Shown piece by piece: positions 581-20,184 of a DNA stretch of 20,428 bases (within the stretch, counting starts at the first letter, position 1; each line of letters opens with the position of its first letter). The stretch covers positions 1-20,428 of the IMG/VR virus record IMGVR_UViG_3300021197_000365; one strand, given 5' to 3'. The position numbers were made by a program, and so were the translations under genes. Source of the DNA: a virus. The notes beneath the pieces were generated by a model. The model ran no database searches. It saw nothing but the letters and a program-made list of their open reading frames with translations, and was not told the origin of the DNA.

Positions 581-1651
581 ATGGCTGCATTTGGAAAAGC
601 CTCTGGCTATACCAACTTGAACAATGGAGTATTCTCCAGCGTTATCTACTCAAAACAGGCACAGATTGCGTTCCGCAAGGCTGCTACTGTAAATGCAATT
701 ACTAACTCAGAATATTTTGGTGAGATTGCGAACCAAGGGGATACAGTGCGTATTCTTAAGGAGCCTGATATCACTGTGAATGCTTTGCTACGTGGTACAA
801 CCGTTTCGGCACAAGACCTCGTTGACAATGACTTTCAGTTGACTATCGACAAAGCCAATTATTTTGCCTTCAAGCTTGACGATATCGAAGAGCAACAAGC
901 ACATCACGACTTTATGCGCTTGTCATCTGATCGTGCAGCATATAAAATGGCTGACGCTATGGATGCTGACGTATTGTCATATATGTCTGGTTACTCTACT
1001 GCAGGTGCGGTAATTAGTACTGTAAGTGGTACTGCTTCACACCAAACAGCGGGTGACTTGACAGGTGAACTTCTGACTGCTAACAAGTTGGATATGTCAG
1101 ACTTCGGAAACATCACTACTTCAGCCTCTTCAGGTACAACTGGTGACTCAATTCCGTTGGCTCCTCGCTTCGGTGGCGCTACTGCAGCCGCTACTACCAC
1201 AGCAACACCTCTCCAAGTTGTAGCCCGTATGGGTCGCATTATGGATCAGGCTAATGTTGATACTCGTGGTCGTTGGCTCTGTGTTGACGCCGTATTTATG
1301 GAAATGTTGAAAGACGAAGATTCTCGCGTATTGAACGCTGACTTCGGTGGTGCAGGGCTGCAAAACGGTCTGGTACTTAACAACCTTCACGGTTTCCGTA
1401 TTTACCAGTCAAACAACCTTCCTGCGAAGGGAACTGGCCCCGGAACCACAGGCGTAACTGCACAGGACGATAACTATGGCGTTATTGTAGCTGGACACGA
1501 CTCCGCTGTTGCAACTGCACAGCAACTCAACAAAGTTGAGACTTATCGTGACCCAGATTCATTCGCTGATATTGTTCGCGGTATGCATCTCTATGGGCGC
1601 AAAATTCTACGTCCAGAGGCTCTGGTAACTGCAGTATACAACGCTGCTTAA
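581..1651 (+). CDS. Major capsid protein
   Basis: This 356-residue protein is the best candidate for the major capsid protein that builds the icosahedral shell. The start is fixed by a strong AAGGAG (568-573) before the ATG. The N-terminus (MAAFGKASGYTNLNNGVFSS) leads into a block that looks like the E-loop and start of the spine helix of HK97-fold capsid proteins: GDTVRILKEPDITVN at about residues 53-67, then LTIDKANYFAFKLDDIEEQQ at about 87-106, then a long helix ending MADAMDADVLSYMSG. The C-terminal part has the strand-rich look of an A/P-domain. Length fits the family. Arginine codons are almost all CGT/CGC, consistent with high expression. It has its own promoter upstream and a terminator downstream, matching the copy number a capsid protein needs. 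It follows a scaffold-like gene, the classic order. I assign function from sequence character and synteny; the exact capsid subfamily is not certain. Confidence 0.85.
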   Translation: MAAFGKASGYTNLNNGVFSSVIYSKQAQIAFRKAATVNAITNSEYFGEIANQGDTVRILKEPDITVNALLRGTTVSAQDLVDNDFQLTIDKANYFAFKLDDIEEQQAHHDFMRLSSDRAAYKMADAMDADVLSYMSGYSTAGAVISTVSGTASHQTAGDLTGELLTANKLDMSDFGNITTSASSGTTGDSIPLAPRFGGATAAATTTATPLQVVARMGRIMDQANVDTRGRWLCVDAVFMEMLKDEDSRVLNADFGGAGLQNGLVLNNLHGFRIYQSNNLPAKGTGPGTTGVTAQDDNYGVIVAGHDSAVATAQQLNKVETYRDPDSFADIVRGMHLYGRKILRPEALVTAVYNAA

Positions 1652-2178: not shown

Positions 2179-2883
2179 ATGGCAAAGTTTGCTGACCGTG
2201 TAAAAGTAAGCACAAGCACTACTGGAACAGGTACAATCACTCTAGGATCTGCGGAGACTGGTTTTGTGGTTGTACCTTCTTCTTTAGATGGAGATACCCT
2301 AAGATATGTAATCGAAGATGGGGGATCTCCTGCAACTGCTTTCGAGATTGGAACTGGAGTTTTCACCAACTCTGGAAGCACTCTCACACGGTCACTTACT
2401 TCCTCTTCTACAGGAAGTCTACTTAATTTATCTGGTAGCGCAAAAGTATTTATATCGCCTACTGCAGATGATTTACAGTTTGTTCAAGTTTATAACTCTA
2501 CTGGTGACCTACCATCAGCTTCAGATAACCACGGCAGAATAACTCACGTACACGGTGATGGTGCAATGTACTTTGCACACGCTGGTAGTTGGGTCAGGTT
2601 ACAAAACTACGACTCAAATCTTCAATCCTTTGTGGACACATTTACACTACCTACATCTGATGGTACTTCAGATCAGGTTTTAAAAACTAATGGTAGTGGA
2701 ACTCTTCAATTCGGCACAATAACTTCTTCGGCGGGGTTTAGCGCAGTAAACGTGGCCTCACGCACTTTAACCACTGACACCACAGTAGGAGCCACAGAAA
2801 GCGCTCTCACGGTTGGGCCGCTTACCATTGCCAGCGGTGTAACTTTAACTGTTGCGGCTGGGGGAAGGCACGTAATCCTATGA
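2179..2883 (+). CDS. Fibre-type virion structural protein
   Basis: A 234-residue beta-rich, Ser/Thr/Gly-rich protein. The start [20 protein letters not shown], followed by a segment of the type RYVIEDGG...[17 protein letters not shown] (about residues 43-70), matches a fold I recognise from cyanophage and other marine phage virion proteins, often at the base of fibres. A histidine-rich stretch, [21 protein letters not shown] (roughly 118-138), sits mid-protein and may bind metal or structure a trimer. The C-terminus ends [20 protein letters not shown] then RHVIL, a short beta-helix-like tail common in phage fibres. AGGA upstream supports the start. The TGA stop overlaps the next start (ATGA at 2880-2883), tying it to the propeller genes. 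Likely a fibre or adaptor subunit; exact location on the virion is unknown. Confidence 0.65.
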
Positions 2884-4037
2884 CCGAAATTCGTGTAGAC
2901 ACAATCGTTGATGCCGCTGGAACAGGCGCACCCGACTTCACTACCGCTCCAACTGTTGGCGGGGTTGCGCTGGGCAGTCTAGCTACTTCCAGCTTTACGA
3001 GTAGTGGCACTGCGCCTTCAAGCCCGTCGAATGGTGCGGTTTGGTGGGATACTACAAACAGCGCATTGAAGATCTATGCAAACAGTGGTTGGCAAACGGT
3101 TACTTTGGGAGTGATCCCGCCGGGGCCAGCTTACTTTGGTGATAGAGCCTTATTTACGTTAGGTTGGGTAAGCAATGGTTCATCACGAGATGATAGAATT
3201 CAGTACTACGATTTAGATGTTAGTGCGAGTGCAAATAGCTTTGGTAATTTATTAGTAGATTGCGTAAATCCTAGCGGTGCTTCTGGTGGGGGCCGAGGTC
3301 TATTTGCGGGCGCAGCGACAAACTCAGGGGTCGTTAATACAATACAATACATCACAATCGCCTCGACTGGAAACTCTACTGACTTTGGTGATCTGACAGA
3401 GGCTAGTTTTAACCTAGCGTCTGCATCTAATGGCAACAAAGCTATTTATGCTATGAACCTTAATAATATGACGAGTTCAATTCAAGAAGTTACAATAGAA
3501 ACCGCTGGTAACGCCACTGCTTGGTCTGGCACTTTAACTCAGGCTAAATGGGATGGTAGCGGTGCTTCTGATGGCACTAAGGGTTTCTTCTTTGGCGGGA
3601 AAACGGGTGCGAACAGTGCTGCTATTAATGAAATAGATTACGTGACTATTGCTACGGATGGTAATGCCTCAGACTGGGGAAATCTTGCTACGGCAAGAAA
3701 AAATGTAGGGGGCGACTCTGCTTGTGGAACCAGTAGCCGCATACTTGTTGGCGGTGGAACTAATTCATCAGGAAGTTATACCGCAACTATTGATTATATA
3801 AATCCAGCAAGTGCTGGTAATGCGTATAGTTTTGGTAATTTAGCAAACGCCCTTTGGTATACTGGCTCTACGAACAACGACACACACGCAATTTGGGTTC
3901 AAGGCCTAAATGCTTCAGTTCAATTCCAAAATTACGCTCATAGAGTTACAATAGATACTACTGGAAATGCCTCACTTTGGGGTACTACCGCTGAGGCGGG
4001 GTACGGCATAGGTGCTACATCAGGAGCGCATTCATAA
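2880..4037 (+). CDS. Six-repeat beta-propeller fibre protein, paralogue A
   Basis: A 385-residue protein made of two parts. Residues 1 to about 80 form a head with [17 protein letters not shown] and later [20 protein letters not shown], a pattern used in marine phage fibres as an attachment domain. From D88 on, six repeats of about 45-52 residues follow, each starting with a strand like RALF, RGLF, KGFFFGG or RILVGGG, then an [18 protein letters not shown]-type segment. Repeat number and period fit a six-bladed, Kelch-like beta-propeller. Such propellers commonly bind sugars or proteins, so I infer a receptor-binding or particle-decorating role. No galactose-oxidase catalytic set or export signal is visible. 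The gene overlaps its neighbours on both sides (ATGA at 2880, TAATG at 4037), and AGGAG near 4022 serves the next gene. Confidence 0.7.
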
Positions 4038-5194
4038 TGTCAGATATTACAGTAGATAAAATTAACAATTTAGCTGGCACAGGTGCTGCTAATTTCACTC
4101 ACGGAATTAAGGTTGGTGGATCAGCGCAAACTCTTGGCGGCGGTACATTTACTAATAGTGACACTGAGCCTACTAGCCCTAGTGATGGTGACATTTGGTA
4201 TGCACCAACGGCTGGAAATTTAGATTATCGTGCTGGGAGTGAGTGGAAGCGGGTCATTGGCGGTGGAACGGCAAACCCTCTACCCTTTAACGGTGATAGG
4301 ATGCTTGTAGCAGGCGCTCAGACCGCAGGGTTTGGCGGCACCTACACAACCAATTTGATGCGATACATTGATATAACTGGTACTGGCGGTCAAGCCCAGT
4401 ATGGTTATACAATCGGATACCAAGCAGTTTACGGTCTTTGTGGAGCGCAGGGAAATGGTAGGGCTGTATGGGCAGGAGGACAAAGATCTAGTGGTCTGGT
4501 CGATGTAATTTTTTACACCGCCACAAATGGTAGTAATGTTGTTGGTACAGACTTCGGTGATCTTGCGAGTGCCTGTAATTACCTTTCTAGTGCATCCAAT
4601 GGTACAACTGCGATATTTAACGGCGGTGTAGGTCAAACCGCTAGTTTAATTGAGAAAGTCACTATTGCTACCACTGGTAATGCAAGCACTTGGTCTGGAA
4701 CAGCAACCAGCGCAACCCAAAAAGCTGGGGCTTCTAACGGTACTAAAGGCTTCTTTATGGGTGGGATGACGCCATCACCGGGTGCCTCTGTTATCGATAC
4801 GATAGAAGTAGTGACCATTGATACTGAGGCTAATGCTACAGACTGGGGGGATCTTGTAGGGGCAAAGCGTAATGGCCCCGGCGCTTGTGGGCAGACAAAT
4901 GGTCGTATTCTTGTTGGCGGTGGTTGGGGGCCGTCACTTTTACTTGATGAAATCGAGTATTTTGATAGTCAAAACGCTGGCAATGCATACTCTTTCGGAA
5001 ATTTGGCTCAGAATGCTGCTTATACTTGTGCTTCCTGTAATGATACTAAGGCCGTTTGGGCTGGTGGTTATGGTGGTTCGAGAAGCAATTTTCAGAATAT
5101 AGTTACAATAGCTACCGCAGCTAATGCGACTGATTTTGGAGACTATTTTACGAGTATTGACTCACCGGGATCTTGTTCGGGGGCACCTGCGTAA
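4037..5194 (+). CDS. Six-repeat beta-propeller fibre protein, paralogue B
   Basis: Same length (385 residues) and layout as the gene before it: an attachment-type head (SDITVDKINNLAGTGAANF, then SPSDGDIWYAPTAGNLDY) and six propeller repeats from about D87. Recognisable repeats include RAVWAGGQ, KGFFMGGM, RILVGGGW and KAVWAGGY, with NATDWGDL and NAYSFGNL segments. The head has lost the usual WWDTxNS form (here IWYAPTAG), a sign of divergence. It is richer in cysteine than paralogue A, for example CASCNDT near the fifth-sixth repeat junction. Equivalent repeats resemble their counterparts in A and C more than neighbouring repeats in the same protein (for example repeat 4 with DWGDL then an AC-containing linker), so the whole gene was duplicated rather than single blades. 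The start overlaps the previous stop. Role inferred as receptor binding or decoration. Confidence 0.7.
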   Translation: MSDITVDKINNLAGTGAANFTHGIKVGGSAQTLGGGTFTNSDTEPTSPSDGDIWYAPTAGNLDYRAGSEWKRVIGGGTANPLPFNGDRMLVAGAQTAGFGGTYTTNLMRYIDITGTGGQAQYGYTIGYQAVYGLCGAQGNGRAVWAGGQRSSGLVDVIFYTATNGSNVVGTDFGDLASACNYLSSASNGTTAIFNGGVGQTASLIEKVTIATTGNASTWSGTATSATQKAGASNGTKGFFMGGMTPSPGASVIDTIEVVTIDTEANATDWGDLVGAKRNGPGACGQTNGRILVGGGWGPSLLLDEIEYFDSQNAGNAYSFGNLAQNAAYTCASCNDTKAVWAGGYGGSRSNFQNIVTIATAANATDFGDYFTSIDSPGSCSGAPA

Positions 5195-6312
5195 TGAGTA
5201 CATTAAAAGTAAACACCATTAAAGATAATGGCACAGCGATTGACCTTGAAAACGGTATTAAGATTGCTGGTGCTTCACCAATACAAAATTACACTGCCAG
5301 TGGAACTGAGCCTAGTAGCGGAGTTGCAAACGGCGACTATTGGTGGGATACTGGTAATTCAAAACTTTATCAGTATTGGAATAGTGCGTTTCAGGCGATT
5401 ACTACTTCGCCACCATCAAATGACAGTCATATTGGGGATCGGGGTATTTGGGGTGGCGGTAACCTTATTAACGCACCTTATTATACAAATGCAATACGAT
5501 ATGTAGACATTACAACCACAAGTAACTCTATTGCTTTTGGTTCACTGAGAGCAAATAGTTCTAGTCTGTCAGGCGCTCAAGGTGAAGGTCGAGGTCTTTG
5601 GCTTGGCGGTAATGAGAGCGGTACGATCACGAATAAGATCGACTACATTTCAACCGCAACATTAGGAAGTGCCCAATCCCAAGGTACTTTGGCATCGACT
5701 TACTATAATATGGCTACTGCCTCAAACGGAACCACTGCGCTTATGTCTGGTGGTAGTATGGTTGGGGGAACTGTAACTCAGCTTACTATCGCTACTGGCA
5801 CAGGAACATCCTCTTTCGGGAGTTTAACTGACTCTAGAAGTAATCTTTGTGCTGCATCCGATGGAACTACAGGCTTTTTTATGGGTGGTTATGTCAGCAG
5901 CGCAGCTTCAAATACGATAGATTCAGTAGATATTTCCACCGCTGGTAATGCCACGGACTGGGGAGATTTAACCGTATCAACCAACGGAATGAGCGGTAAC
6001 GGTGCTTGTGCTAATACGAGTAGGGTCATTCAAGGTGGTGGCTATGTGAGTGGCTCAGTGTCTAACCACATTGCTTATTTCGACACTTCAAGTGCTGGTA
6101 ACGCTACCGACTTTGGTGACAACACGGAATCTCAAGCTTGGAACGCTTGGGCAGCAAACGAAACCAGAGCAGTAGTGGCAGGTGGTTATACTGGCAGTCG
6201 ATCAGGTAACATAAAATACGTAACGATAGATACCCCGGGAAATGCATCTACGTTTGGTCAAATTGGCTGGGGATCTGATAGCCAAGGCTCGCTATCAGGC
6301 CCAGCCTCGTAA
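5194..6312 (+). CDS. Six-repeat beta-propeller fibre protein, paralogue C
   Basis: I place the start at the ATG at 5194 (MSTLKVNTIKDNGTAIDLEN), which overlaps the previous stop as TAATG and restores the N-terminal pattern of its two paralogues; an in-frame TTG at 5173 would add seven residues inside the previous gene. The 372-residue product has a shorter head (about 80 residues, with DYWWDTGNSKLYQYWNS) and six repeats from about D82: RGIWGGG, RGLWLGG, TALMSGG, TGFFMGG, RVIQGGG and RAVVAGG starts, with NATDWGDL and NATDFGDN segments. It completes a tandem triplet. As with the others, a carbohydrate- or protein-binding propeller on the virion is the best reading, by family resemblance. A 30-base gap with AAGGA separates it from the next gene. 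Confidence 0.7.
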   Translation: MSTLKVNTIKDNGTAIDLENGIKIAGASPIQNYTASGTEPSSGVANGDYWWDTGNSKLYQYWNSAFQAITTSPPSNDSHIGDRGIWGGGNLINAPYYTNAIRYVDITTTSNSIAFGSLRANSSSLSGAQGEGRGLWLGGNESGTITNKIDYISTATLGSAQSQGTLASTYYNMATASNGTTALMSGGSMVGGTVTQLTIATGTGTSSFGSLTDSRSNLCAASDGTTGFFMGGYVSSAASNTIDSVDISTAGNATDWGDLTVSTNGMSGNGACANTSRVIQGGGYVSGSVSNHIAYFDTSSAGNATDFGDNTESQAWNAWAANETRAVVAGGYTGSRSGNIKYVTIDTPGNASTFGQIGWGSDSQGSLSGPAS

Positions 6313-6342: not shown

Positions 6343-7173
6343 ATGACAAATATAGTTACAAAACCAATCACGTTTTCTTTGCCTATTGAGGCATCTGAAA
6401 ATATCAATCAGGTAGCGGCAGCTAGGGTTGCTGAAAAATTGCCAGAAATAGATCAGGCCACACGAGCCTTTGATCGTTCTAACTCTCAAACAACACTGAG
6501 CTTAATGAGCCTCACGATGCTTAACGGGCATTCTCCAATGCGGATGCTTCGTCAGGTAGCTGCGGAAGTTGAAACCCGCAAAATGGCTTTGAATGAAGCG
6601 CAAGTCAGTCACGCTGAGTGCCGTGAAGAAATTCTAGAATTAGAAGGCAAAGACGATATCGTGTCAGAGGCCAAGTTGCGAATGAAGCGCCATTCTTTAA
6701 TGACGTTAGAGCATAAAATTAATGGCTCCATCAAAGACATTGCTACGCTTGCAGATGCCTATGACAATCTCAAAGAAAAGCACGGCATTGATGATTGGGA
6801 TGAAGTTGATTTTGAGGCTGAAGAGAAGCGACATCACGTAAGGCGTGGCTTTGAGCTTATGTACCGAAATTTGTTGAATGGGGGTCGAGCTTCAACCTCA
6901 ACGATTGAATATATGCAGCAATATGGGGTGCATCCGCAGGTCGGTTTTACTGAGGTAAACGGATACGTGCAGTACTGCGGCCAGCGCATTTCTCAAGGCG
7001 AACTATTACATTCAAACGATCTTGAAGAATTTCTAGATGAGATGGCCGACAAGTATTGCAAAAACGCAGACGCCACTGCGGAACGAATTTTTGGAAAAGC
7101 TGATTTTGTAAACCCAGAATATATGCTGAAGCTCGAAAAGCCAGAAGGGGATGAAGATGTTTCTGAAGTATAA
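6343..7173 (+). CDS. Conserved-type helical protein of unknown function in the propeller cassette
   Basis: A 276-residue, mainly helical, soluble protein that I cannot assign to a function. The first 20 residues (ITFSLPIEASENI) are strand-like. A long charged helix, probably coiled coil, runs from about residue 70 to 150 (HSPMRMLRQVAAEVETRKMA then EAQVSHAECREEILELEGK). An acidic stretch follows (DDWDEVDFEAEEKRHHVRRG), then a compact C-terminal part with two short tyrosine-rich segments and an acidic tail. No signal peptide, membrane segment or catalytic motif is obvious. Composition is unlike a fibre. Together with its place right after the propeller triplet, this suggests an assembly factor or chaperone for those proteins, but that is inference. 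Arginine codons are almost all CGN, in contrast to the AGA-rich neck genes downstream. A good AAGGA precedes the ATG. Confidence 0.55.
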   Translation: MTNIVTKPITFSLPIEASENINQVAAARVAEKLPEIDQATRAFDRSNSQTTLSLMSLTMLNGHSPMRMLRQVAAEVETRKMALNEAQVSHAECREEILELEGKDDIVSEAKLRMKRHSLMTLEHKINGSIKDIATLADAYDNLKEKHGIDDWDEVDFEAEEKRHHVRRGFELMYRNLLNGGRASTSTIEYMQQYGVHPQVGFTEVNGYVQYCGQRISQGELLHSNDLEEFLDEMADKYCKNADATAERIFGKADFVNPEYMLKLEKPEGDEDVSEV

Positions 7174-7189
7174 ATTACATAGGACTCAT

Positions 7190-7486
7190 ATGGGAAACAC
7201 AACACCGCCGTGGGTTGAAAATCCGGGCTACTTTCCTGATCCAGACGATAACACTTACATTGGGTACACGCCTGACGAAGGTGATCGGGATTATTGGGTT
7301 CCTGATACCGTCACAAATTATACACAGTCAGAACTGGTTGCCCACGTTCTTGATCTACATTCTCGCTATCCAATTTTGCAAGTAAGTGCAGAAACTCCTT
7401 CTGACCCCTCAGAAACACCAAGCGCTATGACAAATGACGAGGTGACAGCATTTGTGAACGCTTGGGCGACTGCAGTAAGTTCTTAA
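7190..7486 (+). CDS. Small acidic protein of unknown function
   Basis: I choose the ATG at 7190 because AGGA (7181-7184) sits just upstream and the extra residues from 7151 would overlap the previous gene. The 98-residue product begins MGNTTPPWVENPGYFPDPDD, is rich in Pro, Asp, Tyr and Trp in its first half (GYTPDEGDRDYWVPD), and ends in a helical half with AMTNDEVTAFVNAWATAVSS. The Trp/Pro/Asp-rich character resembles small proteins found beside phage fibres, some of which are assembly chaperones, but I do not recognise a family. It lies 17 bases after the unknown helical gene and 12 before the large adhesin, so it could serve either. Confidence 0.55.
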   Translation: MGNTTPPWVENPGYFPDPDDNTYIGYTPDEGDRDYWVPDTVTNYTQSELVAHVLDLHSRYPILQVSAETPSDPSETPSAMTNDEVTAFVNAWATAVSS

Positions 7487-7497
7487 AAGGAACCTAA

Positions 7498-10400
7498 ATG
7501 CTCGGCTTTAGCCCCTTATCATCAACAACTCTTGCAGACGATGGACTCTTAATAGTTTCATCGTCTATTAGTTTGTCAGGGGTAAACAGTCAAGGTTCTA
7601 CAGGTAGTTTAAACCTTACTTTAGAAGACAGTAAAATTTTAACATCTGTTTCTAGTGTAACTGCAGTAGGTAGTTTAAATCTTACTGTAGTAGACAGTGA
7701 AACTTTAACACCTGTTTCTAGTGTAACTGCAGTAGGTTCTGTTTCAACATCTATAGTAGATATTCAGACATTAGTGTCTGTATCTAGTTCCACTGCGTTA
7801 GGAACTTTATCTTTAACTGTAACGGATTCAGAGACTCTTTCCTCTGTTTCTTCCTCTTCTCAGATCAACTCTTTAGGAGTACAATTAGAAGATACGCAGT
7901 TAGTAACATCTGTATCTACCTCCTCTCAAGTTGGGAATATAGTTACTAATATAATAATCCCACTCTCTTCAGCAAATACAACAAGTCAAGTTACATCATT
8001 ACAAGGAACTAGTGAAGACCAACAACTTCTAAATTCAGTTTCCTCAAGCACACAAATAGGAACTGTCTCCACAAGTACTTCAGAGCAAGATGTCCTAAGC
8101 GGTGTTTCTTCTGGTTCTAGTATTAATAATATATCTGTAACAGTCACTGACTTACAGGTACTAACTTCTGCATTTTCTTCAGTACAAGTTAACTCTGTTA
8201 TACCAAAGAGCGGCATAGATTTAACTGGAAACTCTTCTTCGGTTGTTGTAAATCCAGTTAGCTCAAATGGGTCAGCTAACGAAACTCTTTCAACGTTAAC
8301 CTCTACTACACAACTAGGTTCAATTCAAATTGGCCCTTCAGAACACCTAGTAGCAGTTTCAGTAACTTTAAGTGTTTCTTCTTTAACACTATCTGTTAGT
8401 TCAAATAAAACTGTTGAAGATGTAAACTCTACTCTTATTTCGGGAAATATAGGCGTTTCAAGTAGTGTTGAGCTATCCTCAGACTCAAGTGCTTCTGAGA
8501 TAGGAGTTGTTACTAAAACAGCCTCTAGTAATTCAACACTAGTTAAAGTTACTTCACAAACATTTATTGATATATCCGCATCAGGTACTGCTAACACAGA
8601 CTTATCAACAGTATCTTCATCTACTCAAATACCAAACAGTTTAGATACAGAAGTTGTTATTATTGCTTCTATAGTAGGTGTTAATACTACCTCTGAAGTA
8701 AATAATGTTTCTGGTATCGAAACTATAAACGCTAATGTTTTATTAGATACTACACCCAATTTATACTACTCAGGTATTGCATCCGCTGGGGTTACATACA
8801 CAAGCTCTACACAGTATCAGAGTTCGGGTGTTGGCGCTGAGTTTTATTTTAAAGTGGCATCTAACTACAGCGGGGGTACACAGTACTTCTTTCAGGCTGA
8901 TGGTAATAAAACAGGTTGGTCATACCAGAGGGCTTATGGTACACTTCAGTCTACTGGTGGCATTGGTGGTTACGTAAGATTAGGTAACCAGTTAGGTAGA
9001 AACGCTGCAGCTAGTGTTAGTGTCTACTTACCTAACTCAGGTACTTTTTCTTCTAACACTTGGTATAAAGGCCGTATTTTTAGTACTGGTCAGCGTGTAT
9101 ACGCACAAATTTTTGACCTTAGTGGCAGTCTTCTAGCATCAAATAGTCAATTAATGTCAATAAGCTATGGGTCTTATACCACTAACTCTTATCAGTTTTT
9201 CTTAGACGAGTTTGTTGTAGGATCAAGCGGCAGTAGTAACGCATTTACTGGACAAATTACTGATTTTAGTATAACTGGTGCATCCCTAAACCCAGTTCGG
9301 AGTAGGGTTCTCTATCAAAGAACAACACCTACTTGGGCAGCTACTAACAGTTTTACAAATAATGCAACCGCTGCTGATACACTTGTTTTCGATAGTCCTT
9401 TTGAAGAAAGCCATAAAACAAGCTCTGGTGCGGCTGTTTCACCCTTATCTTTTTCTTTAGACTCTACCATTGTTCCTAGTTCCGCTACCCTTACAGGTCA
9501 AACTGGTACTATTGACAGTTTTAACGTAAATTCCAGTATAGAGCTTGACAGTTCTACTGGTGTAACGTCTTTAGAAAATATTAGTCAAACTCACTCAAGC
9601 AATAAGTCACTTACTTCAGTACCTTTACAAATAAATGTTGAAGATGTTGCCCCTATTTGCGACTCAACTTCATTCCCTTTAACTACATCCTCTCAAGGTT
9701 TTGTAGGCACATTTACTGTAAATCCAAGCGCTGGTCTGCCTAGTGCAACATCTTCTGCAGTTACAGCAAATCTATCCGTCAGTTCATCTGTTACTATATC
9801 TTCTACCACATCCGTTGGATTAATAGATAATAATGTATCAAGTATTGGAAACGGTAATGCAGACTTAGTAGGCACTTCTTCAAACTCAATCTCAACCTCT
9901 GTCACCCAGACACACTCAAGTAATAAAGTACTTCCCTCTACTAATTCCGTATTTTCAGTAAACGATGTTAGTAAGTCAGCGTCATCCTCTAAAACTGTTA
10001 GTGGTACAGGCGCTCAATTTTCCATAGAAGATATAGCTTTACTTGTAAAAGCTTTTGTATCTAATACTTCTTCAAGTACAACTGTTAATAACTTAGTAAT
10101 AAACTTAAGCGTAACCTTACCAACGTCAACTTCTGCGTCACAGATTTCTGAATTAATAGTTGACATAGATGAAATTATACCCCCGGCATTATCTGTATCT
10201 TCTCAGGTATCTGTAGGTCAGGCTTCTGTAGGTATTTCTGTACCTATAACCTCTGCATCAGCTTCAGTGTCTACTAACAACTTATCTGGGTCTAGTCAAG
10301 AGCCTTTACAGGGTGTAGTTGGTTCACTACAAGTAGGTTCTCTCACTACTTCTCATAATAGTCTTGTTGCTATTAACTCTGTGTCCACTACTTCACAAGT

Positions 10401-10755
10401 TGCGCCTACGCTTGATATAAATTCTGTTGCTGTCATTACAGGCGTAAGTTCTGCTACAGCGTTTAGTATTGAACAAGCCTTTACAGGCCAAGCAAGTCCT
10501 TCTGGAGTTTCTTCTTCTTCTGTAACTGGCTTACTAGTTATAAATGTTGTAAAGGTATTACCCTCTGCAAGTTCTACCTTTAATGCGTCTGAACAAGTAA
10601 AAGGTGTAATAAACACATCTGTACAACTAAGTACTCTACCCTTAGTCACTGTAAGTAAAGGCTCTTTAACTTTATCTACAGATGGGTTTAACTTTGAAGA
10701 GTTTAAGAATGCTTTTGAAAGAGCGCGAACTGTTTATATTTCGAGGGCTGCTTAA
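7498..10755 (+). CDS. Giant Ser/Thr-rich repeat fibre/adhesin with lectin-like domain
   Basis: A 1085-residue protein starting MLGFSPLSSTTLADDG after an AAGGA. From about residue 37 it consists of degenerate repeats of about 22 residues of the form SLNLTVxDSETLxxVSSxTxxG; at least nine consecutive units are visible before residue 280. Residues about 411-610 break the pattern with an aromatic- and Gly-rich domain (AEFYFKVASNYSGGTQYFF, TWYKGRIFSTGQRVYAQIFD, FTGQITDFSI), typical of a LamG/concanavalin-like jelly roll that often binds sugars. Repeats resume and run to near the end, which closes with a helix, FNFEEFKNAFERARTVYISR. I read it as an elongated beta fibre or spike displaying a sugar-binding domain. 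No export signal, sortase or autotransporter motif is present, so it is not a host surface adhesin. Its stop overlaps the next start (TAATG). Confidence 0.65.
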   Translation: MLGFSPLSSTTLADDGLLIVSSSISLSGVNSQGSTGSLNLTLEDSKILTSVSSVTAVGSLNLTVVDSETLTPVSSVTAVGSVSTSIVDIQTLVSVSSSTALGTLSLTVTDSETLSSVSSSSQINSLGVQLEDTQLVTSVSTSSQVGNIVTNIIIPLSSANTTSQVTSLQGTSEDQQLLNSVSSSTQIGTVSTSTSEQDVLSGVSSGSSINNISVTVTDLQVLTSAFSSVQVNSVIPKSGIDLTGNSSSVVVNPVSSNGSANETLSTLTSTTQLGSIQIGPSEHLVAVSVTLSVSSLTLSVSSNKTVEDVNSTLISGNIGVSSSVELSSDSSASEIGVVTKTASSNSTLVKVTSQTFIDISASGTANTDLSTVSSSTQIPNSLDTEVVIIASIVGVNTTSEVNNVSGIETINANVLLDTTPNLYYSGIASAGVTYTSSTQYQSSGVGAEFYFKVASNYSGGTQYFFQADGNKTGWSYQRAYGTLQSTGGIGGYVRLGNQLGRNAAASVSVYLPNSGTFSSNTWYKGRIFSTGQRVYAQIFDLSGSLLASNSQLMSISYGSYTTNSYQFFLDEFVVGSSGSSNAFTGQITDFSITGASLNPVRSRVLYQRTTPTWAATNSFTNNATAADTLVFDSPFEESHKTSSGAAVSPLSFSLDSTIVPSSATLTGQTGTIDSFNVNSSIELDSSTGVTSLENISQTHSSNKSLTSVPLQINVEDVAPICDSTSFPLTTSSQGFVGTFTVNPSAGLPSATSSAVTANLSVSSSVTISSTTSVGLIDNNVSSIGNGNADLVGTSSNSISTSVTQTHSSNKVLPSTNSVFSVNDVSKSASSSKTVSGTGAQFSIEDIALLVKAFVSNTSSSTTVNNLVINLSVTLPTSTSASQISELIVDIDEIIPPALSVSSQVSVGQASVGISVPITSASASVSTNNLSGSSQEPLQGVVGSLQVGSLTTSHNSLVAINSVSTTSQVAPTLDINSVAVITGVSSATAFSIEQAFTGQASPSGVSSSSVTGLLVINVVKVLPSASSTFNASEQVKGVINTSVQLSTLPLVTVSKGSLTLSTDGFNFEEFKNAFERARTVYISRAA
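7646..7737 (+). repeat. 66-base direct repeat inside the adhesin gene
   Basis: A 26-base exact match occurs at 7646-7671 and again at 7712-7737, a shift of exactly 66 bases, equal to one 22-residue protein repeat. The flanking bases (encoding SLNLT, then a DSxxLT block) are also close to identical, so this is a recent in-frame unit duplication. Other units of the gene are much more diverged at DNA level. Such repeats allow length change by slippage or recombination. Confidence 0.85.
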
Positions 10756-10882: not shown

Positions 10883-11200
10883 ATGGCGTTTAGGTGGCCC
10901 AACAAAGACCCAGATGAGACACTTGACTATAGTGTAGATTGGTCACGGTTTCTAGGTAATAAAACGATATCAAGTGTAGCTTGGTTCCTTAGAGATGCTA
11001 ACGGTGTTATGCAAGAAATTACGGCTGGGCAAACTCTTAACAACATAACTATCACATCTACGACTAATACAGATACAGTTGCGACAATATACATTAGCGC
11101 TGGTTTAAACAATGTTGACTACAAGTTTACCTGTCGTATAACTAACAACTTAGCTAATACTGTAGAGAGATCTATTAAAATAAGAATGCGGGAACAGTGA
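10883..11200 (+). CDS. Fibre-tail adaptor-like protein
   Basis: A 105-residue beta-rich protein starting MAFRWPNKDPDETLDYSVDW. The DPDExLDYxxDWSxxL opening, then ISSVAWFLRDANG, a Thr-rich strand pair (NNITITSTTNTDTVATIYIS), GLNNVDYKFTCRITNN and a final ERSIKIRM strand, match a common small Ig-like phage protein that I recall being annotated as a fibre-tail adaptor (Gp77-like). It would connect a fibre to the tail or neck, which fits its position between the large adhesin module and the neck adaptor gene. AAGGA (10871-10875) lies upstream. The exact family assignment is from memory of its sequence pattern. Confidence 0.65.
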   Translation: MAFRWPNKDPDETLDYSVDWSRFLGNKTISSVAWFLRDANGVMQEITAGQTLNNITITSTTNTDTVATIYISAGLNNVDYKFTCRITNNLANTVERSIKIRMREQ

Positions 11201-11201
11201 T

Positions 11202-11885
11202 ATGGCATATGACTTTTTAGGCATAGTTAACGACATAAATAGAAGGTCTAATGAGGTAGAGCTTACAACAGATAACTTTAATACAGTTACTGGTTATTAT
11301 TCTGCTATTAAAGATTCTGTTAACTCGTCAATTAACTTTATAAACCAGCACGAATATGAGTGGCCTTTTAACCACTCTGAGGAAGAAGAGACACTTACAG
11401 CTAACATCGTTAGGTATTCTACTCCCGGGGATGCTAAGACTGTTGACTGGGATAGCTTTAGAATAGCTAGAAGCGCTACATTAGGTAATGAAACAGTTAA
11501 ATTAAAATTGATTTCATACGAAGAATACCTTGACAAATACGCAGATTACGAGTATAACTCTGAGTTAAAAGGTATGCCCCGTTATGTATTCCAAACCCCT
11601 AGCAGAGAATACGGACTAGTACCTGCCCCAGACAAAGCTTACACTATCTTCTATGAGTATTACAGACTACCTGTAGATTTAGTTAAAAACACAGATGTTC
11701 CCGCTTTACCAGAGTATTTTAGACACGTTATTGTAGACGGTGCTATGTACTACTTGTTTATGTTTAAGGGTGATATGCAAGCTGCTAATGCATTACAACA
11801 AAAGTTTCTTATGGGTATTAAGCATTTACGAAGTACCTTTATAAACAGAACAAGCTACGTAAGAGACACTAGAGTACATTACTAA
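11202..11885 (+). CDS. Head-tail neck adaptor protein
   Basis: A 227-residue protein that probably forms the ring joining portal and tail nozzle, equivalent in place to P22 gp4 or T7 gp11. It opens with a helical segment (YDFLGIVNDINRRSNEVELT), has a helix pair ending INQHEYEWPF, a beta middle containing YSTPGDAKTVDWDSF, a YEEYLDKYADYEYN stretch, then PRYVFQTPSREYGLVPAPDK and YTIFYEYYRLPVDL, followed by PALPEYFRHVIVDGAMYYLF and a closing helix. The 'FYEYYRLPxxL...D.PxLPExxxxVIVDGA' block is what I recognise from podovirus adaptor proteins of the SU10 type. Arginine codons are almost all AGA/AGG. It follows the previous gene after one base and overlaps the nozzle start (TAATG at 11885), the usual adaptor-nozzle order. 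Confidence 0.75.
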   Translation: MAYDFLGIVNDINRRSNEVELTTDNFNTVTGYYSAIKDSVNSSINFINQHEYEWPFNHSEEEETLTANIVRYSTPGDAKTVDWDSFRIARSATLGNETVKLKLISYEEYLDKYADYEYNSELKGMPRYVFQTPSREYGLVPAPDKAYTIFYEYYRLPVDLVKNTDVPALPEYFRHVIVDGAMYYLFMFKGDMQAANALQQKFLMGIKHLRSTFINRTSYVRDTRVHY

Positions 11886-16811: not shown

Positions 16812-18887
16812 ATGGCAAAACGTTTCTTAGGATTTACACCAGAGCAGAGAGGCAAGATTGTGCCTGAGTTAGCTGGTATGCAAGGTGATGAACAGCGTAG
16901 AGTTATTGCATCTAATCCTGCTTATCAGGCTAAACTAGGTAACGCAACAGAGCAAGCTATGCGTGTTTTAAACCCTCAACCCGTTAAAGCTAATAATGGT
17001 ATGTATGTAAAGGGTTTCAATGAGGGTGGGCAAGCTAAACTAGATGCCGCACAGAAACGTGTAGCTGATGCTCAAGAAGCTTTACAGGCCGCTAGGGATG
17101 CTCAAGCAGCTAACCCAGAAGACGCATCTTTAGTAACAAAGGTTACTGAGGCTGAGACTAGATTGAGAAATGCTCAAGAGTCTCTTCAAGGTGCAGAGAC
17201 TTCCTTTAAAACTACTGAGATGCCCTCTAATGTAGAGATGACATCTACAGCGGTAAACGATCCTGAGTCTTTAATTACTAAGACAGATGTAGAGAAGATT
17301 ACCACAGATGATAAACAGACCATTACTACGGGCACTGGTGAGGTTGGCGATGCTGAGAAGGCAACTGCAACAACTGCGGAAACAGAAGAAGACGTTGTAG
17401 CTCCAGAAAAGAAGCCTACTCCTACTGTTGAGGCTACTACAGTCACAGATGAGGTTAAGAAAACTTTAGATTCTTTAACTGCAGCAACTGGTCTACCTAG
17501 TGACGAGGCTTTAGCTAAAGCTGCGACTATGAACCCTGATGAGTTAGCTCAACTAGGTTTAACTGCAGCACAGATTACAGCCGCACAGACAGTTAAAGCT
17601 CCCGATAAGCGTAAGGTAGAAGACGGTGAGATGATCTCAGGATCTTCTGTCGATATGGATCGTGTAAAGGAAGAGACAAGCTTTGAGGCGGCTACAGGCG
17701 CACCCTCTTCTGATGCCACAGTCCAAGGCCAGTTAAGCGGTCTTATGGAAGACTTTGAAGAGAAGAATCCACCAGCTTGGGCTGCAGGAGCTATGAGAGC
17801 AGCATCAGCGGCACTAGCGGCTAGGGGTCTTAGCTCCTCTAGTATGGCTGGTATGGCTGTTGTACAGGCGGCAATGGAGAGTGCTATTCCTATTGCTTCT
17901 CAGGATGCTAAGACTGCAGCAAGCTTTGAGTTACAGAATTTATCTAACAAGCAACAGTCTGCTATGTTTGCTGCACAGCAACGTGCTGAGTTTCTCAACC
18001 TAGAGTTTAACCAAGAGTTTCAGACTCGTGTAGCTAATGCAGCTAAGATCTCTGACATAGCTAATATGAATTTTACTGCAGAGCAACAGATTGCCTTGGA
18101 GAATGCCCGTCTAGCTCAGTCAGTAGATCTAGCTAACTTAGATGCCGCTAATGCTAAGGTGTTGTCTGATGCTGCAGCAATGACTCAGATGGACACAGCT
18201 AATTTAAACAACCGTCAACAGGCGGCTATACAGCAAGCTAACGCATTCCTACAGATGGATATGCAGAACTTAGAGAATGAACAACAGACTAATGTGTTTA
18301 AGGCTCAACAACGTGCTAATGCTTTGTTGTCTGACCAAGCAGCTGAGAATGCGGCTAAACAGTTTAACGCATCTAATCAGATACAGGTTGACCAGTTCTA
18401 TGATAATCTGAGTTCATCACTTAGTATGTTTAACTCTGAACAAGCTAATGCTCAGAATAGATTTAATGCTGGTGAAACAAACGCTATTGAGCAGTTCAAT
18501 AAGAAAATGGTAGATGAGCGTGAAAGATTTAATGCTGGTAACCAACTTATAATTGAGCAAGCTAATGCGGCGTGGTATCAAACAGTTGCCACTATAGATA
18601 CTGCAGCAACCAATGAAGCTAATCGTGCGGATGCAGCGGCGGCAACTAATATGACAGCCCTAGCATTTAGTGCTATGATGCAAGAGACTAGGGATATGAT
18701 GAGCTATGCTTGGCAGTCTGCTAACAATGATGCCGATAGGGCAACCCAGCTTGCTATTGCTCAACTATCATCAGATGATGCTAAACAGGCAGCAAGTGCT
18801 GCTAAATCTTCTGGCTTCTGGAGCGCTCTTGGCAACTTTGGTAGTGCCGTTGTCGAGGGTTACTTGGCTGGAAGAAATAAAGAATGA
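16812..18887 (+). CDS. Internal virion / DNA ejection-type protein
   Basis: A 691-residue, low-complexity helical protein, starting after AAGGA (16800-16804). The N-terminal part has a coiled coil (about residues 77-135, AQKRVADAQEALQAARDA and similar) and a Thr/Glu-rich acidic linker (about 136-220). The C-terminal half, from AALAARGLSSSSMAGMAVVQ at about residue 332, is Ala/Gln/Asn-rich with recurring units such as NLNNRQQAAIQQANAFLQMD, NLENEQQTNVFKAQQ and RFNAGETNAIEQFN, ending in a small hydrophobic segment (SGFWSALGNFGSAVVEGYLA). I recognise this Ala/Gln/Asn repeat type from marine phage virion proteins in the late region. It lacks sugar-binding or enzyme motifs. By place between neck/fibre genes and the lysozyme, it likely belongs to the internal or ejected proteins that open a path across the cell envelope. 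Confidence 0.65.
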   Translation: MAKRFLGFTPEQRGKIVPELAGMQGDEQRRVIASNPAYQAKLGNATEQAMRVLNPQPVKANNGMYVKGFNEGGQAKLDAAQKRVADAQEALQAARDAQAANPEDASLVTKVTEAETRLRNAQESLQGAETSFKTTEMPSNVEMTSTAVNDPESLITKTDVEKITTDDKQTITTGTGEVGDAEKATATTAETEEDVVAPEKKPTPTVEATTVTDEVKKTLDSLTAATGLPSDEALAKAATMNPDELAQLGLTAAQITAAQTVKAPDKRKVEDGEMISGSSVDMDRVKEETSFEAATGAPSSDATVQGQLSGLMEDFEEKNPPAWAAGAMRAASAALAARGLSSSSMAGMAVVQAAMESAIPIASQDAKTAASFELQNLSNKQQSAMFAAQQRAEFLNLEFNQEFQTRVANAAKISDIANMNFTAEQQIALENARLAQSVDLANLDAANAKVLSDAAAMTQMDTANLNNRQQAAIQQANAFLQMDMQNLENEQQTNVFKAQQRANALLSDQAAENAAKQFNASNQIQVDQFYDNLSSSLSMFNSEQANAQNRFNAGETNAIEQFNKKMVDERERFNAGNQLIIEQANAAWYQTVATIDTAATNEANRADAAAATNMTALAFSAMMQETRDMMSYAWQSANNDADRATQLAIAQLSSDDAKQAASAAKSSGFWSALGNFGSAVVEGYLAGRNKE

Positions 18888-18900
18888 TAAGGATAACATA

Positions 18901-20184
18901 ATGAGCGAAGTACAATTTTCCTTTGATGCCCTAAGCTTTCTGCAAGAAGTTCTTCCAGAGCCAGAAGAGGCTAAACCTACAGAGTCCATAATTAGTAGAC
19001 CTACAGAGCCTAAACCTGTAGAGGCTAAGGACGAAAACCAAACGATGCTACAAGACTTTGCTCGCCTACAGGCTGACCAGTATGACTTGAAGAGTATGAA
19101 GAAAGCCCCACCTGTAAAGTCTAACCTTATACAAGACTACTTAGATAACTTAGATATGTTCTACAAAGATGAGCAGATGAATGAGGCTATCAATAGCGCT
19201 CTGATGGAAGCTACTAGACCCCCTATAGGGCAAATGTCAGATACAGCTAGGACTGCTATGTTTAGTGGTGCTGATATGCGGGGTTCTGAGTTGACTATGA
19301 TGGACAACGCTAGGGAAGCTCAGGATGTAGTTCAGCCTATGGTCACACCTGTCTCTAGAGGTGAACAGCCAGAGATGGCAGACAGCCCAGCGCTTGTAGA
19401 TACACCTAGTATAGATGATCGTAGTAATGAGATGCTAGAGAAGCCTAAAGGTATTATGAATAGACCAGAGGTAGCGACTGCAAGAGAGGATGCTATAGCT
19501 GCTGGCCCAGAAGAAACAGTAGCTCCTCAAATAGTCTTCCTTAATGACTCTACAACAAATAAAGGGTCTACTGAACGAGGTATATATCAGTATGCATATG
19601 AGCAAGGGATTAAAGGAGATGAGTTACAATCTTTTATGTCTCAGGTAGCTCACGAGTCAAGTAAGTTTGGTAAAATGCAAGAGTCTGGATACTTGTGGAA
19701 AAATGTAGCATCTATGGAGCAGGCTAAAAAAGATAGACTTGCAAGAGATGGTGTTACGGAGAAGAATGCTACCGCCGAGAGAATATTTAATTCTATATAC
19801 GCAGGTAAAAATGGCAATGGTGACTTTGCCTCTGGGGATGGTAGTCGCTACAAAGGAAGGGGTTACATCCAATTAACAGGGCGTGATAACTATAGGCTTA
19901 TTGGTGAAGATATTGGCGAAGATTTAGAAGGTAATCCTGACCTTATGCTTGACCCCGAAATAGCAAAACGCGCATCTGTAGCTTGGTGGAAAAGAAATGT
20001 AAGATCTAAAAAACCTGATTACACCGATGTAAAGAGGGTAACTAGAATAGTTAATGGTGGGGAAAATGGCTTATCTGAGCGTAAAAAGTACTTTAAAAGG
20101 TATGGTGAAAAACCTACCGCCCCTCAAGCTTCTTTAAGACCATCAGCAAGACCAGAGCCTAACATACAGGTGGCATCTAACTAA
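18901..20184 (+). CDS. Virion-associated GH19-type lysozyme
   Basis: I start at the ATG at 18901 (MSEVQFSFDALSFLQEVLPE) with an AAGGA upstream; the longer frame from 18706 lies inside the previous gene. The 427-residue protein has a disordered, acidic, Pro/Glu-rich N-terminal half (residues 1 to about 215, with TEPKPVEAK and Met-rich stretches), then a catalytic domain of the GH19 (chitinase-like) lysozyme type. QVAHESSKFGKMQES places likely catalytic acids at E252 and E261; a conserved GDG...KGRGYIQLTGR block spans about D313-R328, and NPDLMLDPEIAKRASVAWWK follows. GH19-type phage enzymes cleave peptidoglycan. Its long N-terminal extension and location among virion genes suggest it is packaged and used at entry, though it could also serve as endolysin. 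No signal peptide is visible. Confidence 0.8.
   Translation: MSEVQFSFDALSFLQEVLPEPEEAKPTESIISRPTEPKPVEAKDENQTMLQDFARLQADQYDLKSMKKAPPVKSNLIQDYLDNLDMFYKDEQMNEAINSALMEATRPPIGQMSDTARTAMFSGADMRGSELTMMDNAREAQDVVQPMVTPVSRGEQPEMADSPALVDTPSIDDRSNEMLEKPKGIMNRPEVATAREDAIAAGPEETVAPQIVFLNDSTTNKGSTERGIYQYAYEQGIKGDELQSFMSQVAHESSKFGKMQESGYLWKNVASMEQAKKDRLARDGVTEKNATAERIFNSIYAGKNGNGDFASGDGSRYKGRGYIQLTGRDNYRLIGEDIGEDLEGNPDLMLDPEIAKRASVAWWKRNVRSKKPDYTDVKRVTRIVNGGENGLSERKKYFKRYGEKPTAPQASLRPSARPEPNIQVASN

Follow-up and report, generated by a model that had tools for sequence, protein, structure and literature searches.

Three adjacent genes, A, B and C, in a fragment of a marine podovirus genome of the HMO-2011 type most likely encode receptor-binding tail-fibre tips with three docking positions and a dedicated assembly partner, as judged from sequence comparison and structure prediction. 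The window analysed (the whole stretch of 20,428 nucleotides, IMG/VR record IMGVR_UViG_3300021197_000365) carries them on the plus strand as adjacent reading frames with slight overlaps: A in slot 1 (2880..4037, 385 aa), with a class-1 head (aa 1-85, ~2880-3134) and a predicted six-bladed Kelch-type propeller (~3135-4034); B in slot 2 (4037..5194, 385 aa), with a class-2 head (aa 1-84, ~4037-4288) and a six-repeat propeller; and C in slot 3 (5194..6312, 372 aa; start codon ATG at 5194, not TTG at 5173), with a class-3 head (aa 1-79, ~5194-5430) and a six-repeat propeller. We consider it quite probable that this locus represents a modular cassette for receptor binding. In this model the heads would serve for docking, whether at three separate sites of the tail-fibre apparatus or to each other; the propellers would be exchangeable tips contacting host-surface ligands via their BC/DA face; and the partner D would aid folding, assembly or attachment of the Kelch tips. 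By recombination in the head sequences, which are conserved and flank each body, the phage could then acquire a new set of binding specificities without a rebuilt virion.

Paralogy and fold of A, B and C

As proposed in the preliminary description, A, B and C form an adjacent triplet in which each gene encodes a head and six repeats, and they are full-length paralogues, with protein identities of 42% for A-B (E 6e-66, 377 columns), 37% for A-C (E 3e-54) and 38% for B-C (E 3e-52). The low DNA identity reported was also found, similarity between A and B being confined to patches of at most 59 bases. Six repeats were counted as described, and the given length of about 45-52 residues holds (44-52) except for the first unit of 40-42 residues, which in A comprises three strands, with the last strand at 379-382 according to the model and the repeats. 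Repeats of the same index in different genes had a mean score of 79.9 (42% identity), compared to 33.9 (33%) for different-index repeats between genes and 38.7 (35%) for adjacent repeats inside one gene, and for each of the three gene pairs the identity pairing ranked first among 720 permutations. This confirmed that equivalent repeats match better across the genes than neighbours within one gene; over 76 relatives the same-index signal was far weaker (44% vs 41%).

AlphaFold2 modelling of A with an alignment including 76 relatives led to a mean pLDDT of 90.4 and an all-beta body (body blocks ~91-98), with low confidence for residues 1-40 in the monomer. The best PDB matches of this model in Foldseek were six-bladed Kelch domains (E 1e-18, TMt 0.85-0.91), and structure prediction did thus return the anticipated propeller. 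All six units follow the consensus GG-x7-N-x-I-D-Y ... DFGDL, from which individual blades of A, B and C depart. Pfam Kelch profiles matched 1 of 76 members (E 0.007, threshold not reached) and a profile of the 76 propellers matched no PDB sequence; as these searches miss the Kelch match, the bodies of A, B and C are Kelch-type by fold rather than by profile. The predicted six four-stranded blades with GG ending strand b, and the variable BC and DA loops, are as in the Kelch propellers KLHL12, Keap1 and CBB_552, whereas the sequence identity of A to solved Kelch domains is 11-13% and the Pfam Kelch models stay below threshold. Mass spectrometry of phage CBB has shown CBB_552 to be a virion component (PMC5259590). 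A reading of A as HNH protein (PF01844, E 0.0015, below cut-off) was rejected because the match falls on the propeller, and C weakly matched phrog_19111, of unknown function.

Head classes and exchange of propellers

The heads, ~80 residues long in A, B and C, sort into three classes when separated by HMMs; simple identity clustering gave no clean separation. Complete related arrays, defined as entries bounded by Z and D (n=26), contained 2-7 genes, and the copy number of propeller genes across relatives ranged from 1 to 7. All three head classes were present in 24 of the 26 complete arrays, class 1 came first in 25, and class numbers were equal (1:1:1 or 2:2:2) in 19. Five further arrays had all three classes in unequal numbers (e.g. 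1-3-2-2 or 1-2-3-2-3), one was without class 1 and one without a clear class 2. Several different propellers within one operon, as first described, are supported. Heads of the same slot were 82-90% identical among near relatives, those of different slots 40%. The head of B has indeed lost the WWDTxNS form; slot-2 heads in more distant relatives retain WWDS/WWDT, and the loss is a lineage trait. The three heads represent ancient, separate classes common to many phages. No match to a gp10-like XD or TD docking domain was obtained for the heads in Pfam or PHROG.

For the bodies, identities among near relatives were 45-57% in the same slot and 45% between different slots. Class changes amounted to 3 on the head tree and 33 on the body tree, compared to 41.5 (sd 2.5-2.6) with shuffled labels on the latter. 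Slot 2 of the relative L007 is a chimera of nt 1-248 of window B (85%) and nt 256-1160 of window A (90%), so that a slot-2 head precedes the propeller found in slot 1 of the window; the breakpoint lies no more than ~10 bases from the head-propeller junction. Compared with L086, the flanks align at 91-95% and most of the triplet at ~67% or not at all. In L213 and L216 all three slots have switched together, behind the same heads, to another propeller family with matches to the SGL and Lactonase families, and in L177 a related propeller follows an Mtd (tropism-determinant) N-terminal domain. By sequence and model, each head keeps to its slot, and the propellers move between slots and between phages, the exchange taking place where head and propeller meet. 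The suggested whole-gene duplication with later divergence consequently holds in outline only, given separate, ancient head classes and reassorted propellers. A Pfam scan of the main window ORFs detected no reverse transcriptase of a diversity-generating retroelement; the variation would be explained by whole-body exchange instead, and this trading of propellers between heads looks like a quick change of the bacterial surface bound.

A single heterotrimeric or branched complex, in which heads 1, 2 and 3 co-assemble into one fibre with three different propellers, is conceivable, if doubtful. It would fit the presence of all three classes in 24/26 arrays and their equal numbers in 19/26, the joint change of propeller family in L213 and L216, and the low confidence of the first 40 residues of monomeric A, which would suit a segment that becomes folded during assembly; the five arrays with unequal class numbers, the one without class 1 and the one without a clear class 2 speak against it. 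Only tentatively can it be suggested that the head classes are obligate, non-interchangeable parts of one hetero-oligomeric fibre, with a recombining pool of propellers and D as a propeller-specific assembly factor. If true, this would be a combinatorial receptor-binding system in abundant uncultivated marine phages.

Tail genes around the cassette

Z (2179..2883, plus strand), a fibre-like protein 5' of A and the 5' border of the cassette, matched the tail fiber protein family phrog_9729 (E 9e-11). It is 97-99% identical among near relatives of the Kelch type, and in cassette-swapped relatives its conservation is limited to aa 1-102, indicating a conserved N-terminus of ~100 aa and an exchangeable remainder. 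Further downstream, F (10883..11200, plus strand) is a fibre-tail adaptor homologue, with 62.6 bits (cut-off 27) to Pfam PF23148 (Gp77, 'Podophage GP4 fiber-tail adaptor protein gp77'); beside it lies a tail adaptor gene (11202..11885, plus strand) with matches to Pfam PF24175 SU10_adaptor (E 2.7e-16) and the tail protein family phrog_10775 (E 5.6e-36). The proposed assignment of the cassette to the tail fibres is supported by these two adaptors and the family match of Z. A match of F to the designed protein Ika8 (PDB) was rejected, as no single stretch passes alone.

The major capsid protein (581..1651, plus strand; phrog_267, E 4.5e-56), which served as handle for finding near relatives, is up to 72% identical to those of the Roseobacter phages CRP-2 and CRP-207 and 62% to that of HMO-2011. 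The window phage shares its capsid and tail core with the HMO-2011-type phages CRP-1/2/3 and HMO-2011 (PMC6918029), a type reported to rank with the most abundant marine viral groups known (PMC6918029); HMO-2011 and CRP-2 differ in having neither Kelch cassette nor D. Only 1.2 kb separate the capsid gene from the start of the cassette, and the head of A weakly matches phrog_1786 'minor head protein' (E 0.008). The three proteins could accordingly sit on the capsid as head fibres, with the propellers binding host surface or particles from there. We regard this as unlikely, in view of the tail fiber family of Z upstream, the fibre-tail and tail adaptors downstream, the Mtd head on the related propeller of L177, and the many phages in which near-identical capsid proteins coexist with quite different genes at the cassette position.

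Variable face and selection

Variability of the DA+BC loops was 2.94 bits, that of the AB+CD loops 1.35 bits (p 1.6e-14), and recent changes affected 24% vs 11%. In Kelch pockets the BC loops form the frame and the DA loops the floor (PMC7333892), and the variation in the propellers concentrates on this BC/DA-loop face, the ligand face of Kelch domains. Close copies had dN/dS of 0.27-0.68, indicating purifying selection. Decay of the copies was rejected from open frames and dN/dS below 1, and the earlier scenario of one normal copy beside decayed ones does not apply, since the copies are maintained.

Many propellers are enzymes, and the same heads bear SGL/Lactonase-matching propellers in L213/L216, so that A, B and C could act as enzymes (e.g. 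polysaccharide or lactone hydrolases) opening a capsule rather than as pure adhesins. This is rather improbable, because the Kelch bodies resemble ligand-binding Kelch domains, no catalytic signature was found in them, and variability is highest in the loops where an active site would most likely lie. Plain tandem duplication with drift, leaving a redundant triplet with no slot logic, would agree with true paralogues, repeats in register and a copy number of 1 to 7, but is highly improbable and already disfavoured by the conserved head classes and their order, purifying selection, and the precise head-body exchange and body shuffling.

Comparison with known systems

Like the branched tailspikes of the Ackermannviridae (CBA120, S117; PMC11414711, PMC8825819), the window has several adjacent, putatively receptor-binding genes with conserved N-terminal parts for probable docking, different for each member, and variable C-terminal parts for probable binding, the latter replaced by recombination behind a kept N-terminus as seen in S117. 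Ackermannviridae spikes are joined via gp10-like XD/TD domains on a myovirus baseplate, whereas the window represents a podovirus with ~80-aa heads without Pfam match, Kelch tips and a constant helical gene after them. Among cyanophages, the Synechococcus phage S-SKS1 has Kelch-like repeat genes beside a phrog_1409 gene, and P-HM2 has a Kelch gene missing from its co-isolated relative P-HM1 (PMC3037559); however, S-SKS1, S-ShM2 and P-HM2 are T4-like myoviruses and lack the three head classes. In phages related to that of the window, the fibre bodies encoded at one locus can be Kelch, lactonase-like or FG-GAP propellers. Tandem slot-headed Kelch copies with exchange have, to our knowledge, not been described before. 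In the proposed cassette, sequence alone would define a set of heads, exchangeable tips and a partner gene, predicting specificity in the BC/DA loops, its change by recombination at the head junction and a need of the tips for D; the host-deciding part of an uncultivated phage thereby becomes testable.

Genes D and E

D (6343..7173, plus strand) encodes a conserved 276-aa protein, modelled as all-helical (AF2 pLDDT 77.6) and proposed as assembly chaperone or adaptor for the Kelch bodies. A propeller gene lies directly upstream in 53 of 59 distinct D genes, and D is missing where other bodies fill the slots, as in L213/L216 (other propeller family) and L003/L013. D is a distant relative of phrog_1409, of unknown function; it had no match in Pfam, nothing credible by sequence in the PDB and nothing below E 0.001 by fold in BFVD. 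The D profile had no match in cyanophage genomes, in which the PHROG 1409 model did match. SShM2_038 of S-ShM2, a distant D relative, follows non-Kelch fibre-like genes, so that the wider D family is not confined to Kelch bodies. Like the tail-fibre chaperones T4 gp38, Tfa and Pam3 gp25 (PMC9608196), D lies directly downstream of fibre genes and is inherited together with one fibre-tip type. Unlike these, it is all-helical and strongly conserved, resembles no known chaperone family in sequence or fold, and is shared by up to seven fibre genes. The label 'chaperone' for D is based on position and co-inheritance, and the role is putative.

A tblastn search of 50,697 phage records with C, D and E gave no homologue, and a distant D relative as query found no isolate phage. 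In the genome collection D was present in only two MAG contigs, titled Porticoccaceae (9.9 kb) and Alphaproteobacteria (3.1 kb); as these are short and may be co-binned viruses, no host is claimed from them. E (7151..7486, plus strand), a small protein of 111 aa, is found downstream in most arrays and accompanies the three heads even without D, as in L213 and L216.

Genomic context of the propeller genes

The capsid protein of the window shares up to 72% identity with those of Roseobacter phages CRP-2 and CRP-207 and 62% with that of HMO-2011, so the window, a virus record of 20,428 bases, represents part of the genome of an HMO-2011-type podovirus. The genes that separate the capsid gene from the tail adaptors all lie on the plus strand, several of them with overlaps: Z4 (1725-2162), the tail-fibre-like Z (2179-2883), the propeller genes A (2880-4037), B (4037-5194) and C (5194-6312), the partner gene D (6343-7173), the small gene E (7151-7486) and a gene for a serine-rich protein of 1085 aa (7498-10755); F (10883-11200, plus strand) is homologous to the podophage GP4 fibre-tail adaptor gp77 (PF23148; 62.6 bits, cut-off 27) and precedes an SU10-type adaptor gene. 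The serine-rich protein contains many short repeats and, around aa 420-600, what may be a globular insert, and Pfam and PHROG searches gave zero matches; some relatives conserve it well, others have a replacement.

Three paralogous Kelch-type propellers

The preliminary description of A, B and C as a tandem triplet of six-repeat propeller genes was borne out. The proteins are paralogous over their full length (37-42% identity) with almost no DNA similarity, each has six units (consensus opening S(D/N)GTRGxFxGGx7), and pairing these in register ranked first of 720 permutations in all three gene pairs. An AlphaFold2 model of A (76 relatives in the input) reached a mean pLDDT of 90.4 (body blocks about 91-98), and its top matches among solved structures were the six-bladed Kelch domains of KLHL12, Keap1 and the designed SAKe6 (11-13% identity; E about 1e-18; TM, normalised by target length, up to 0.91), a likeness that sequence-profile searches miss. 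Given their 37-42% identity to A, the B and C proteins are probably propellers as well. The triplet is real and functional. In L095 (7591-8762) the slot-3 propeller gene reads as two separate ORFs of 296 and 93 aa, apparently through a frameshift or assembly error, with the remaining copies of that array intact.

Head classes and slot order

The N-terminal heads of 89 relatives fell into three classes, with the motifs MTEIKVDTVVDxAGTGKPNF (class 1), KITDRAGTGAPNFTxGxNxxGSDSG (class 2) and MSTLKVNTIxNxGSAVDFPNKLKVxGNAIEQGYT (class 3); for most heads the best and next-best class HMM scores differed by tens of bits. Among 26 array entries flanked by Z and D, 24 contained all three classes and 25 began with class 1, counts given without a probability because L007 and L089 (two of the 26) share one cassette and related contigs are non-independent. 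Orders included 1-2-3, 1-3-2, 1-1-2-2-3-3, 1-1-2-3-2-3, 1-3-2-2 and 1-3-1-2-2-2-3; the exceptions were L134 (2-3) and L175 (ambiguous middle head). Searching again from class-1 heads, without reliance on D, recovered more arrays of the same kind. The heads are slot-specific.

The largest arrays (L127:658-9944 and L150:1-10828) have seven propeller ORFs each, one in L150 being cut by the locus edge. In L058 (8563-10032) a class-1-like head is broken by a domain common to cyanophage baseplate and tail-fibre connector proteins.

Exchange of propellers behind the heads

In seven near relatives, heads of the same slot were 82-90% identical, bodies only 45-57% (range 30 to 100%). Mapped onto the body tree, head class changed 33 times (41.5 with shuffled labels, sd 2.5-2.6), and onto the head tree 3 times; the latter figure is partly circular because the heads themselves defined the classes, and the contrast is the meaningful part. 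The slot-2 gene of L007 resembles window B over nt 1-248 (85%) and window A over the remainder (90%), which puts the breakpoint no more than about 10 bases from the point where head and propeller meet. Between the window and L086 the flanks are 91% and 95% identical, the triplet mostly about 67% or unalignable. Propellers are exchanged behind the slot heads at the head-propeller junction.

L003 and L013, near-identical relatives with a capsid protein 97-99% identical to that of the window, carry other fibre genes where A-C, D and E stand. This alternative cassette (L003:8364-16437; L013:3058-9460) has the heads MSNNRNLGNIATAI and MSNASNLSTLANVL; the two L013 proteins look similar to each other, with FG-GAP repeats in the one scanned, and the bodies in L003 are different. 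L213 (10001-13417) and L216 (10001-13408) keep heads 1-2-3 with an SGL/Lactonase-like propeller (about 48-residue repeats) in all three slots.

Mean entropy per loop was 3.4 bits for DA, 2.7 for BC, 1.7 for AB and 1.2 for CD (DA+BC versus AB+CD, p = 1.6e-14), and close copies differed at 24% in DA+BC versus 11% in AB+CD, with dN/dS of 0.27-0.68. In solved Kelch complexes, BC loops frame the ligand pocket and DA loops form its floor (PMC7333892).

The partner gene D

D is all-helical and shares 58-98% identity with its relatives. In 53 of 59 cases the gene immediately upstream of it encodes a propeller, regardless of the head. It is absent from L213 and L216, where E is retained alongside the heads, and also from L003 and L013. 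D is distantly related to phrog_1409, with matches to 37 of its 49 members at a best E of 4.5e-8; a gene of this family adjoins Kelch-like repeat genes in cyanophage S-SKS1 and follows fibre-like genes without Kelch repeats in cyanophage S-ShM2. Position and co-inheritance suggest that D is an assembly chaperone or adaptor.

Proposed function of the cassette

Fold, head classes, junction exchange, variable face and D linkage come from sequence and model. A tail location is suggested by the adaptor genes, the tail-fibre-like Z, a relative of the propellers on L177 carrying an Mtd head, and the Kelch protein in the virion of phage CBB (PMC5259590). There, the heads would dock the proteins, as one complex or at three separate sites, the BC/DA face may bind receptors, and D may act as an assembly factor. 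Among systems whose working is understood, the branched tailspike complex of Ackermannviridae comes closest; in it, swaps behind conserved N-termini alter host recognition (PMC11414711), and the window cassette may work likewise; however, it is not a member of this kind, because the gp10-like docking domain of that complex was not found in it. The more interesting fact, which shows only when relatives are compared, is that the triplet first described forms an array of three slots whose propeller tips can be interchanged and which has its own dedicated partner gene.

Further along the window, a 691-aa protein rich in Ala, Gln and Asn (16812-18887; zero matches in Pfam and PHROG) is possibly, as a guess, an internal or ejection protein, and 18772-20184 encodes an endolysin whose C-terminal part holds a GH19 (chitinase class I) domain (PF00182, E 6.8e-9).
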